DNA of 64,000 nt from Thioalkalivibrio nitratireducens DSM 14787. GTDB lineage: Bacteria; Pseudomonadota; Gammaproteobacteria; Ectothiorhodospirales; Ectothiorhodospiraceae. The position numbers and the translations under genes were made by a program. The notes under the pieces were generated by a model. That model saw only the letters and a program-made list of their open reading frames with translations. It made no database searches and was not told the DNA's origin. Positions within the stretch are counted from its first letter, which is position 1. Each line of letters starts with the position of its first letter. Positions 23,247 through 55,976 of the stretch are shown here, in pieces. Location of the stretch: positions 2,728,001 through 2,792,000 of the forward strand of contig NC_019902.2 of the NCBI RefSeq assembly GCF_000321415.2. The letters run 5' to 3'.

Positions 23247-23355
23247 GCCGGGAGCGGGATGGACGTGATACGGACCGTCGGCGGCCATGGATGGCCGCCG
23301 CAGGTTGCCCAGGGACGGCTCGAGCGTGCCCGGTCACGTCCATCCCGCTCCGGGC
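23247..23355. repeat. Nested palindrome downstream of lpdA
   Basis: An 18-bp perfect inverted repeat (GGAGCGGGATGGACGTGA at 23251-23268, complement at 23334-23351) extends to about 22 bp with one mismatch. It encloses a second perfect hairpin, GGCGGCCAT (23280-23288) and ATGGCCGCC (23291-23299), with a 2-nt loop. It lies between the AraC relic and the lpdA stop, so it could serve as a terminator-like structure for lpdA although it lacks a T-tract, or be a small palindromic repeat element. No flanking direct duplication was seen. Confidence 0.7.
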
Positions 23356-49807: not shown

Positions 49808-49967
49808 GGGAGCATTACGGATTTGTTCCAATGGGTGACGAACCTGCTCGGCGACCCCTGGTCCCGGCGCGCCTGCGGCGCGTTCGCGAGCAGGCTCGCT
49901 CCTACGCGGTCCAAGGCAGCGCTTATCGGTCTGCCTGGATGAGCCAGAACAATCCGGTAATGCTCCC
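49808..49967. mobile_element. 160-bp MITE-like element with 20-bp terminal inverted repeats and 8-bp target duplication
   Basis: The left end GGGAGCATTACGGATTTGTT (49808-49827) is nearly complementary to the right end at 49948-49967. It is flanked on both sides by a perfect 8-bp direct repeat GTCTCCTT (49800-49807 and 49968-49975). The element encodes no protein. It carries a REP-type hairpin, TTCGCGAGCAGGCTCGCTCC, within 49883-49902. The inverted ends plus exact duplication indicate transposition of a non-autonomous element, but no transposase with matching ends is in this window. Confidence 0.82.
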
Positions 49968-52736: not shown

Positions 52737-53759
52737 ATGAGCGCACGCGAGACCGATACGCCGGTACTGGTCGTGGGCCCTGCCTGGGTAGGCGACATGA
52801 TCATGGCCCAAAGCCTGTTCATCACGTTGAGCCGCACCCGGCCGGGGGTCGCGATCGACGTGATCGCCCCGCCGTGGAGCCTGCCGATCCTGGAGCGCAT
52901 GCCTGAGGTGCGTCGCGCCATCCCCCTGCCCGTGGCGCACGGCGAACTCGCGCTGCGCAGACGCTGGCAGCTCGGCCGCCGCCTGCGGGCCGAGGGCTAC
53001 GCGCAGGCGATCGTGCTGCCACGCTCGGCGAAGGCGGCCCTGCCGGTGTTCGCCGCGGGCATCGCGCGCCGCACCGGCTACCGGGGGGAGTTCCGGTACG
53101 GGCTGCTGAACGACATCCGACCGCTGGAGCGCGCACGCCTCTACCGCACCGTAGATCGCTTCGTGAACCTCGGCCTGGAACCCGATTCCGCCCCGCCCGC
53201 GCCGCTTCCCGAACCGCGGCTGCGGATCGCCCCGGCAGCCGCGGCCAGAACAGCCGCTGCGCTGGGCCTGAACGCCGACACCGCGCCGGCACTCGCACTG
53301 TGCCCGGGCGCCGAATACGGCCCCGCCAAGCGCTGGCCGGAGGAACACTTCGCCCGCGTCGCCCGCGACCGCCTCGCCGCCGGTTGGCAGGTCTGGCTAC
53401 TCGGATCGGACCGCGACCGCGCGGTGACCCACGCGATCGCGGCGGCTGCTCCCGGGGCGGTCGATCTCGCCGGACGCACCACGCTGGCGCAGGCGGTCGA
53501 CCTGCTCTCGCTCGCCCGCGCCGTGGTCAGCAACGACTCGGGGCTGATGCACGTAGCCGCGGCGGTCGCTGCGCCGGTGATCGCGCTGTACGGATCGTCG
53601 GACCCGAACTACACGCCGCCGCTGAGCGGCAAGGCGCGGATTCTGAGCCTGGGCCTCGACTGCAGCCCGTGCTTCCGGCGTGAATGCCCGCTCGGGCACC
53701 TGAACTGCCTGCGCCAGTTGGCGCCCGAACGCGTGATCACGCTGCTCGACGAGACCTGA
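52737..53759 (+). CDS. waaF: ADP-heptose:LPS heptosyltransferase II
   Basis: 340 aa GT-B glycosyltransferase, family GT9. It adds the second heptose of the LPS inner core at the cytoplasmic face. VLVVGPAWVGDMIMAQSLF is the WaaF-type N-terminus. LCPGAEYGPAKRWPEEHFA and SNDSGLMHVAAAVAAPVIAL are the WaaF signatures for ADP-heptose binding. ATG 52737 is chosen; upstream open frame belongs to the sprT shadow. Confidence 0.92.
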   Translation: MSARETDTPVLVVGPAWVGDMIMAQSLFITLSRTRPGVAIDVIAPPWSLPILERMPEVRRAIPLPVAHGELALRRRWQLGRRLRAEGYAQAIVLPRSAKAALPVFAAGIARRTGYRGEFRYGLLNDIRPLERARLYRTVDRFVNLGLEPDSAPPAPLPEPRLRIAPAAAARTAAALGLNADTAPALALCPGAEYGPAKRWPEEHFARVARDRLAAGWQVWLLGSDRDRAVTHAIAAAAPGAVDLAGRTTLAQAVDLLSLARAVVSNDSGLMHVAAAVAAPVIALYGSSDPNYTPPLSGKARILSLGLDCSPCFRRECPLGHLNCLRQLAPERVITLLDET

Positions 53760-53838
53760 AGGAAGCGCCCTCGACACAACCTACCACCTGATTATCACGG
53801 AAGCTCTGCAAACTGGAACGGGCCGCCATCGAAACCAC

Positions 53839-54043
53839 CGTCATCGCGAGGAGCGAAGCCTTTAGCCGCGAGCGCAGCGTGGCGGGACGTGGCGATCCAA
53901 ACGGCGTGAGCCCTCCCCACGCCGCCTGGATTATTCGCTGCGCTCACGCTGCGGGCCAGCCTTCGGCTGTTCAATGCGCTGCGCGCATTAGTGCCGCGCT
54001 ACGCACTACGCACTACGCACTACGCACTACGCTCGCAATGACG
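53839..54043. repeat. 205-bp palindrome-ended dispersed repeat inside the MITE-like element
   Basis: The ends CGTCATCGCGAG (53839-53850) and CTCGCAATGACG (54032-54043) are inverted with one mismatch. Internal pieces such as GGCGATCC and TTCGCTGCGCTCACGCTGCG resemble the widespread dispersed repeat with GTCATTGCGAGCG-type ends found in many bacterial genomes. It is nested in the 308-bp element. No target duplication could be defined. Confidence 0.65.
54004..54031. repeat. CACTACG heptamer tandem repeat, 4 copies
   Basis: Four perfect contiguous CACTACG units, with a partial unit before them. It is non-coding and internal to the palindrome-ended repeat. Copy number is likely to vary between strains by slippage. 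Confidence 0.9.
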
Positions 54044-54163
54044 ACCGACGCAGAACGGTGTCGTGCTCGCTGCGGAGGTTTCGTGATAATCAGGACCTAC
54101 CATGGCGTCTACCGGTCGCCGGGGCGCGAACGGCGGGGTCTTTCACGTTGCGGGCCACACGGG

Positions 54164-55249
54164 TCAGACGGCGAGACGGTCGATCCGCTCGCAGACGTCA
54201 GCGACCGTGATCAACTCCATCGCCCGCGGATGCCGGACCCGCGTGCCCCAGCGCAGCGTATCCGGCTCGCGGCCGAGGAACCGGCGCACCGCGTCCGGAT
54301 AGCGGTCGACGACGAACTCGCGATGGCGATAGGGCCCGGTGCGTTGCGGGTTCGAGGTGGCGTACAGGCCGATCACCGGCACATCGAGTGCGCTCGCGAT
54401 GTGCACCGGCCCGGAGTCTGGCCCGATCAGGCCCGCGCAGCGCGCCAGCACCGCAGCCAGCTGCTTCAGGCTGGTCTGCCCCACCAGGTCCACGGGGCGC
54501 ACGCGCGCCCCGGCCACGATCGCGTCCGCGTAGGCGCGCTCGCGTGCCGACGGGCCACCGGTCAACACCACGCGGAAACCGCGCGCGGCGGCGTGGTCCG
54601 CCACCGCCACATAGCGCTCTGCCGGCCAGTCCCGGTAGTTATGCAGCCGCAGGCTGGAGCACGCGCTGATCGCCAGCAGGGGACGGTCCGCGGGCAGTTC
54701 GCGCGCCGCGAAGGCCAGCGCGTCGTCCGGCAGCGGGATCCCCCAGGCGAGCTCCCGCGCGGCCAGTCCAGCCCGTTCCAGGAAGCCGAAGTAAGCGTCC
54801 AGCACGTGCTCGCGGGAGCGCGCGGCGATACGCTCGGAGGTGAACAGCCACTGGCCGTTTACCGCCCGGGCGCGGTCGAAGCCGATGCGCCGGTGCCCCC
54901 GCAGGCTGGTCGCGATCAGGCTGGCGCGCAGCGACGACTGCATCTGCAGGATCACGTCATGGACGCGCCCGGTCTCCTCGGCGCGCAGCCGCGCACGGCA
55001 GCGACGAATTCCCTCACGCTTGTCCAACACCCGGAAAGTCACATCGGGAATATCGCCGACCAGCCCGGCCTCGGTACGGCCCACCACCCAGGTGATCGCG
55101 GTATCTGGCCAGCGCCGCTGCACCGTGCGCAGGATCGGCAGCACATGCGTGGTGTCGCCGATCGCGGACAGCCGGAAGATGCACAGACTGGCGGGCACAC
55201 CCGCCCCGGCGGGCTCAGCCACCCGTGGGATCTGCCGGCGGAGCGGCAT
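54164..55249 (-). CDS. GT9-family heptosyltransferase-like glycosyltransferase
   Basis: 361 aa from ATG 55249; GTG 55198 would give 344 aa, closer to the family and starting just before SLCIFRLSAIGDTTHVLP. GT9 signatures: IFRLSAIGDTTHVLPILR, RIGFDRARAVNGQWLF, GLIGPDSGPVHIASALDVPV. It probably transfers a heptose or related sugar in the LPS core, as WaaC or a WaaF-like enzyme; which acceptor cannot be told. Its 5' end overlaps the kdkA stop, so it is downstream in the hldE-hldD-kdkA-GT9 direction. Confidence 0.86.
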   Translation of the reverse strand: MPLRRQIPRVAEPAGAGVPASLCIFRLSAIGDTTHVLPILRTVQRRWPDTAITWVVGRTEAGLVGDIPDVTFRVLDKREGIRRCRARLRAEETGRVHDVILQMQSSLRASLIATSLRGHRRIGFDRARAVNGQWLFTSERIAARSREHVLDAYFGFLERAGLAARELAWGIPLPDDALAFAARELPADRPLLAISACSSLRLHNYRDWPAERYVAVADHAAARGFRVVLTGGPSARERAYADAIVAGARVRPVDLVGQTSLKQLAAVLARCAGLIGPDSGPVHIASALDVPVIGLYATSNPQRTGPYRHREFVVDRYPDAVRRFLGREPDTLRWGTRVRHPRAMELITVADVCERIDRLAV

Positions 55250-55976
55250 TCGGGTTCCGGTAGCCGGAGAGCAGCGCGGCGAAATCCCGTTCCGAGAAAT
55301 GCCAGCGGTCGAGCAGATGCAGACGCTTCTCCAGGTCTCGGCGCAGTCGCGCCAGGTTGCCCTCGCGCCAGGCGCCGGCGGCGCGCTGGCGCCCGCGATC
55401 CCAGTCGAGCAGCCAGACCCGGCCGCAGACATCGAGCAGAATATTGCGGCTGTTCAGGTCCGCATGACAGTAGCCGGCGTCGTGGAACTGGCGGATGCAG
55501 ACGCCGACCCGGTGCCAGGTCAACGCGCTCACGGCCTCCGTGCGCAGCCGGGAATCCAGCGGGCGGGCGTCCGGGATCCGCTGCGTGACCAGGTCGGCGC
55601 GGTAATACGGGCCCGCGCGCACGATCCGAGCCGCCACCGGCCGCGGGACCGGCAGTCCCAGGTCGCGCATTTCCGCGGTCAGCAGGAACTCACGCCAGGG
55701 ACGGCTACGGCGCAGCCCAGTCCAGAGATAACGGTCGCCGAGCACGCGGGCCACCGAGCCGCCGCGCAGGTAGTGGCGCAGGACCCACTGCCCGTCGTTC
55801 CCCGGGATCGGCGGATCGAAGAACAGAACCTGCCCGCGACCCGCCGCCCCGCGGGCCGCGACCCACCCCTGTTCCACCAGGGCCGCGGGATCGAACATCC
55901 ATCGGGCCGGGACCACATCCAGCGCGGCGTCGTGGATCAGGTAGCCCTCGTCGGTCTGCTGCACCCGCCATTCCAT
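55215..55976 (-). CDS. kdkA: 3-deoxy-D-manno-octulosonic acid (Kdo) kinase
   Basis: 253 aa. It phosphorylates Kdo on lipid A precursor, as in Haemophilus. A small kinase fold carries GQWVLRHYLRGGSVARVLGD, the catalytic HADLNSRNILLD (His-Ala-Asp-Leu-Asn) and the metal-binding LLDWDRGR. The family (KdkA/LPS kinase) usually occurs where Kdo is a single phosphorylated residue. It overlaps the GT9 gene by up to 35 nt and is 27 bp below hldD. Confidence 0.9.
   Translation of the reverse strand: MEWRVQQTDEGYLIHDAALDVVPARWMFDPAALVEQGWVAARGAAGRGQVLFFDPPIPGNDGQWVLRHYLRGGSVARVLGDRYLWTGLRRSRPWREFLLTAEMRDLGLPVPRPVAARIVRAGPYYRADLVTQRIPDARPLDSRLRTEAVSALTWHRVGVCIRQFHDAGYCHADLNSRNILLDVCGRVWLLDWDRGRQRAAGAWREGNLARLRRDLEKRLHLLDRWHFSERDFAALLSGYRNPNAAPPADPTGG

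Follow-up and report, generated by a model that had tools for sequence, protein, structure and literature searches.

What is the 308-bp insertion that lies between two convergent glycosyltransferase genes of Thioalkalivibrio nitratireducens, and which enzyme could have moved it? An earlier note on the window (i.e. the whole 64,000-nucleotide stretch of DNA analyzed here) described it as a mobile, MITE-like element with perfect 13-bp ends and a perfect 8-bp duplication, and as a nested composite that holds a palindromic repeat and a fourfold heptamer. From the analyses below, we give a probability of about 0.9 to the reading that this is a non-autonomous MITE, whose ends an IS1595-family DDE transposase would recognize in trans.

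Structure of the element

The element occupies positions 53787-54094 of the window and has perfect 13-bp inverted ends (CCTGATTATCACG at 53787-53799, and its exact inverse at 54082-54094), which extend to 24 nt with an 88% match, as well as perfect 8-bp repeats on its flanks (Table 1). We scanned all 64 kb for perfect 11-bp inverted repeats that are separated by 80-2500 bp and bordered by perfect direct repeats of 5, 8, or 9 bp. Besides the 308-bp element, with its 8-bp direct repeat, the scan returned two other candidates, one at 23253-23349 with a direct repeat of 5 bp and one at 49808-49967 with a direct repeat of 8 bp. As only three were found, the structure of the 308-bp element is more than what chance would produce. 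The candidate at 49808-49967, which is perhaps the first MITE of the earlier note, is a short element of 160 bp with perfect 11-bp ends (GGGAGCATTAC) and an 8-bp duplication (GTCTCCTT).

The 308-bp element has no capacity to encode a transposase, being too short for a 315-aa protein such as the one described below. In the list of open reading frames, the sole frame of at least 80 aa that enters it (53879-55588) runs antisense over the next gene.

Table 1. Features of the 308-bp element and its surroundings, in window coordinates.
Feature	Position	Strand	Basis or remark
Glycosyltransferase family 9 gene (waaF of the earlier note), putative start codon	52455..53759	+	Ends 27 bp before the element
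Left target duplication, 8 bp, ACCTACCA	53779..53786	.	Sequence
Left end, inverted repeat of 24 nt, imperfect except for its outer 13 bp (CCTGATTATCACG)	53787..53810	+	Sequence; genome-wide end pattern; IS1595-family elements have similar ends
Linker from the left end to the core, more variable	53811..53838	+	Mean majority share 0.88, 40 aligned copies
Nested palindromic core with CGTC at either outer end and inner tails of the CCA/TGG type	53839..54043	.	Also in a second shell and naked in the genome
Heptamer array, four GCACTAC units	54003..54030	+	28-bp expansion missing from the other 42 aligned elements
Right linker, more variable	54044..54070	+	Mean majority share 0.85
Right end, second arm of the inverted repeat (24 nt)	54071..54094	-	Sequence; end pattern
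Right target duplication, 8 bp, ACCTACCA	54095..54102	.	Sequence
Convergent glycosyltransferase family 9 gene, putative start codon	54164..55432	-	Family match

A multi-copy family in the T. nitratireducens genome

The earlier note proposed to search the genome for the ends of the element. In this genome, where the window lies in one contig of 4,002,350 bases, a 23-base end pattern with up to 3 mismatches has 94 matches (45 + 49), compared with 0 + 0 for the reversed control. The element with its flanks has at least 47 matches, pieces included, a lower bound that comes from scoring 40 of 153 first-look candidates. From 58 loci of this genome we delimited 46 end pairs, which leave 43 elements once 3 overlapping alternatives are dropped. 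These 43 elements form size clusters of 193-198, 254-256, and 279-284 bp, besides which one element each measures 245, 266, 267, and 327 bp; the size of 308 bp is that of the window copy alone.

The 8-bp flanks of the elements are identical (8/8) in 25 of 43 cases, match at 7/8 in 6, and at 6/8 or fewer in 12. When left flanks were paired with the right flanks of different elements as a control, only 3 of 1806 pairs matched at 7 or more positions. In some of the 12 elements that lack a good duplication, another repeat abuts the end. Near-identical copies are also present at different sites, each with its own perfect duplication (e.g. 2 differences in 280 bp), and as such some of the movement is probably fairly recent. 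The description of a MITE-like 308-bp insertion with 13-bp ends and an 8-bp duplication is thus borne out by sequence, copy number, and duplications, and that of a mobile element by the multi-copy, non-coding family, the target duplications, and two relatives in which this gap is without the element (see below).

Conservation within the family was counted over 40 rows (3 of the 43 elements were dropped). The mean share of the majority base is 0.97 in one 24-nt end and 0.95 in the other, compared with 0.88 and 0.85 in the two linkers. For the core it is 0.95; more exactly, it is 0.953 when the 28 heptamer columns, which are filled in a single row, are excluded, and 0.96 with them. Conservation of the core is close to that of the ends and above that of the linkers.

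The row with the heptamer columns is the window copy, in which the 28-bp insertion takes the element from 280 to 308 bp; the other 42 aligned rows are without it. The four GCACTAC units that had been read as part of a nested composite are therefore present, but as a local expansion and not as a separate nested element. Four extra units would have arisen from one heptamer, probably by slippage.

Other repeats were seen in contact with family members. A repeat of ~125 bp, with 18 matches in this genome (L159-L176), starts with TCTTGAGAAAC and finishes with a GC-rich hairpin plus GCTGATTA; it directly abuts several MITE ends, and the first MITE base at these junctions is G, not C. At another locus (L091, 2680-3846), an IS110-family transposase in two frames lies beside a MITE copy, and its frame enters the MITE sequence.

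Full-length IS1595-family elements with similar ends

A genus-wide search with the end pattern found ends located 1,045 bp apart in one genome (G012). The element they delimit has matching ends and a duplication (AAATTCAT), and it encodes a protein of 315 aa in which DDE_Tnp_IS1595 and a zinc ribbon are both present. The G012 transposase matches NF033547, a model that was matched in 2 of 2 proteins scanned. All transposases scanned carry DDE_Tnp_IS1595, with the zinc ribbon as well in both complete ones (L119 and L132); the three partial ones show the DDE domain alone.

The T. nitratireducens genome itself has two strong IS1595 relatives, one intact and one broken by TAG, plus a short fragment; the survey that showed this fragment covered 369 genomes drawn evenly from the class. 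The intact copy is a 1,048-bp element with the duplication TCCCTGTT. The TAG-broken copy lacks its left end, and on that side it borders a group II intron that carries a reverse-transcriptase gene.

We also searched for full elements without using any end sequence. At 18 loci with IS1595 transposases, requiring an 8/8 duplication and inverted ends that match at 12 or more of 20 positions, we find 11 matches at 15/20 or better, and none at any of the ten shifted offsets used as controls. Ten of these 11 were accepted as full insertion sequences of 977-1072 bp, including the G012 element that had first been found through its ends; 9 of the 10 begin with CCTGATTA or CCTAATTA, and L191 is counted although its ends begin with CATGCC. 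An 8-bp duplication hence accompanies an accepted full element at 10 of the 18 loci, 8/8 being a condition of the search. For 6 of the 18 loci the search for ends and an 8-bp duplication gave no candidate. The candidates at two more, L179 and L186, were rejected on end sequence and position; the one at L179 has a 17/20 end match, but with another end sequence and a length of 1,556 bp. L119 and L143 also gave additional, weaker candidates, which we set aside. One intact IS1595-family element with the duplication TGAGGGGT (L143, 1412-2459, genome G011) lies inside what appears by eye to be a CRISPR array.

Across the seven IS ends that we compared with the MITE consensus, 15-21 of 23 positions match. 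Specifically, the match is 18-21/23 for a degenerate subgroup, 17-19/23 for G012, and 20/23 for the broken copy of T. nitratireducens, while the ends of the intact copy in the same genome match at only 15-17/23. Given this poor match of the intact insertion sequence, the family may have been spread by a transposase that no longer exists here, or by one that is loose in its choice of ends; the enzyme may have been that of the broken copy or of a lost one.

Ends that match at up to 21/23 positions could also belong to an internally deleted IS1595-family insertion sequence, i.e. a type I MITE and not a shell defined by its ends. Past the 23-bp ends, however, we find no similarity to the seven IS ends, as the best of 14 comparisons was equalled by 59 of 300 shuffles. 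Moreover, elements of 198 and 266 bp have the same ends around unrelated interiors. The lack of shared subterminal sequence led us to reject a deleted insertion sequence, which we regard as improbable, and together with the unrelated interiors it indicates a MITE defined by its ends.

A shared target rule

The MITEs and the full IS1595-family elements have in common the target rule C-W-[W-N6-W]-W-G, where the bracket marks the duplicated 8 bp. At 31 MITE sites, 61 of the 62 duplication edges are A or T, as are 60 of the 62 bases directly beyond them, and the base after that is C (G on the other side) in 48 of 62 cases. For the 10 IS sites, the corresponding numbers are 20/20 for the edges, 19/20 for the bases directly beyond, and 15/20 for the C/G position. 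Target duplications of 8 bp are given as usual for the IS1595 family in the sections cited of PMC8101967.

End similarity had been suggested as a way to identify the trans-acting transposase, and it leads to full elements of the IS1595 family that share similar ends, 8-bp duplications, and the target rule with the orphan element. From these three features we infer that its transposase belongs to the IS1595 family and that it moved in trans. In the mechanism we propose, an IS1595-family transposase would pair both MITE ends, cut or copy the element, and insert it at C-W-[W-N6-W]-W-G with duplication of the bracketed 8 bp. The palindromic repeat is present in the aligned family members, and would already have been between the ends when the composite spread.

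The palindromic core and a second shell

The core of the element is a 205-bp palindrome that resembles CGTC-tagged REP dimers. A sequence from it, CGTCATYGCGAG, has 64 + 92 matches in the genome, compared with 1 + 0 for the control. Of these 156 matches 100 were itemized, and 56 of the 64 forward ones could be classified by shell: the IS1595-type shell accounts for 35 of them and a shell with GGGAAGCGCTGA-type ends for 6, and the remaining 15 are outside both, although two of these 15 (42063 and 2297579) look by eye like decayed shells. The second shell, with its GGGAAGCGCTGA-type ends, was seen at seven loci, and TA is found on both sides in 3 of 6 elements for which both ends were delimited. 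Core copies also occur naked, some of them in tandem arrays, e.g. at 626-714 kb in this genome among the matches listed (reverse ones to near 713 kb). The claim of a nested palindromic repeat therefore holds, in that the core is an independent repeat that is also found in another shell and naked.

Loci that show the second shell are L028, L030, L110-L114, L266, and L245 near 102633, most of which hold the same palindrome core. In the 626-714 kb region (L267, L272, L273, and L274), naked CGTC-like palindromes face each other, partly in tandem, at spacings near 95-120 bp.

By eye, the core has the CGTC outer ends, the CCA-type inner tails, and the two facing units of CGTC-tagged REP dimers, as described in the sections cited of PMC3733652. 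However, the stems of 8-9 bp and loops of 4-5 bp given there for the REP families are not seen in the core, where units are, again by eye, much longer, and for this reason we term it CGTC-like and not a member of the class. The same source, in these sections, gives the class as lacking a dedicated transposase, and places the CGTC-1 dimers of H. neapolitanus inside 41-bp palindromic sequences; its section 7 names no transposase for this surrounding palindrome.

Because the core is found in another shell and naked, it could be the part that moves, as a REP-type element served by a RAYT-like or other enzyme, with the ends as passive sequence. Against this, the target duplications directly border the CCTGATTATCACG ends on their outer side. 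Furthermore, two elements (169581 and 315421) have the same ends and no detectable core (no match better than E 0.09), and keep duplications of 8/8 and 7/8. These core-less elements led us to reject mobility of the core alone, which we consider very improbable.

Pieces of the core are common in relatives with few or no family ends (e.g. G021, G009, and G010), which argues against the IS1595 shell as the sole vehicle of the palindrome. CGTC-like dimers might spread in this genome as passengers in unrelated MITE shells, at least the IS1595-type and the GGGAAGCGCTGA-type, with each shell moved by its own transposase; we offer this reading tentatively, at somewhat less than even odds.

The same gap in relatives and the flanking genes

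The suggestion that the insertion separates convergent LPS genes agrees with the convergence of the two neighbors, both of which match glycosyltransferase family 9. The five highest-identity relatives of the flanking gene are from Thioalkalivibrio MAGs. In G011, where the flanking gene has 86% protein identity, both flanking genes are convergent and the gap between them holds a 10-bp tandem repeat (L208) and no element. Both genes are also present in G043 with no element between them, and this genome has many family ends elsewhere. At four other loci (L209 and L211-L213), the first gene gives no alignment beside the second. The earlier note also proposed a search for empty-site relatives, and took sequence conserved at this locus in distant relatives as a sign of vertical origin; the element is instead missing from the gap of G011 and G043, with the same gene order, in gaps too diverged to define an empty site to the base.

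We predicted the gene context of 42 of the 43 copies with a home-made predictor, and find 20 in tandem, 10 in convergent, 5 in divergent, and 7 in undetermined settings, while the gaps of the window, used for comparison, are 27 tandem, 5 convergent, and 4 divergent. Convergent sites make up 10 of the 35 copies with a prediction on both sides vs 5 of 36 window gaps, numbers that are too small, and a prediction too crude, for a preference. Similarly, the absence of copies inside genes (0 by this predictor) says little, because an insertion breaks the frame needed for detection.

The predicted RNA fold of the element is strong on both strands (z = -5.2 and -5.0 vs 100 shuffles). This fold and the convergent position, including the 10/35 vs 5/36 noted above, would favor a hairpin with a regulatory or terminator role that the convergent gene pair has inherited vertically. 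Yet the gap is without the element in G011 and G043, positions 53700-54200 have 0 terminator-like and 0 promoter-like sites, and the copies at 20 tandem and 5 divergent sites place the family in mixed gene contexts. On these three grounds we reject a conserved hairpin, which we find scarcely credible. An Rfam search of the window stretch gave one sub-threshold match, outside the element. We find no evidence that the insertion affects the two flanking genes, and its intergenic position between convergent genes suggests that it is most likely neutral for the host.

Distribution and comparison with known elements

A 324-base query has matches in 23 of 25 genomes of the genus and in 0 of 15 others; many of the listed matches are to the core only, and the copy counts, from at most 18 scored candidates per genome, are lower bounds. 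At least 7 ends per strand are present in 7 of 30 genomes of the genus. The plasmid and phage collections searched gave no match. In the literature, covered as titles and openings of abstracts with few subscription journals, we recognized no description of the 308-bp element, or of a MITE with both an IS1595 link and a CGTC palindrome.

The 308-bp element is, with good support, a further example of a known element type. It resembles IS1595 elements with ISXO2-like transposases in its 8-bp duplication, similar ends, and target rule (PMC8101967, in the sections cited), and differs in being without a transposase and in having only the ~23-bp ends in common with them. MITEAba12 of Acinetobacter is alike in that similarity to its presumed parent insertion sequence is limited to the terminal repeats and that it has no coding capacity. 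By contrast, its parent is ISAba12, its duplications are of 9 bp, its length is 111-114 bp, and the sections cited mention no nested palindrome (PMC6382973). QMITE2 of Coxiella burnetii shares terminal repeats, direct repeats (7-11 nt), and a repetitive extragenic palindrome within the element; it differs in its length of 150-190 bp and in a palindrome that is GTAG and not CGTC, with no IS1595 link mentioned in the sections cited (PMC5896051).

Implications

With the reading as an IS1595-dependent MITE, a high-copy orphan repeat is tied to a named transposase family by its ends, duplication length, and target rule. The part worth following is the palindrome passenger that is common to two shells. 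Since the core is found in two unrelated terminal-repeat shells of one genome, the spread of such palindromes is directly testable. If the passenger reading is true, CGTC-like repeats would not require a dedicated enzyme.
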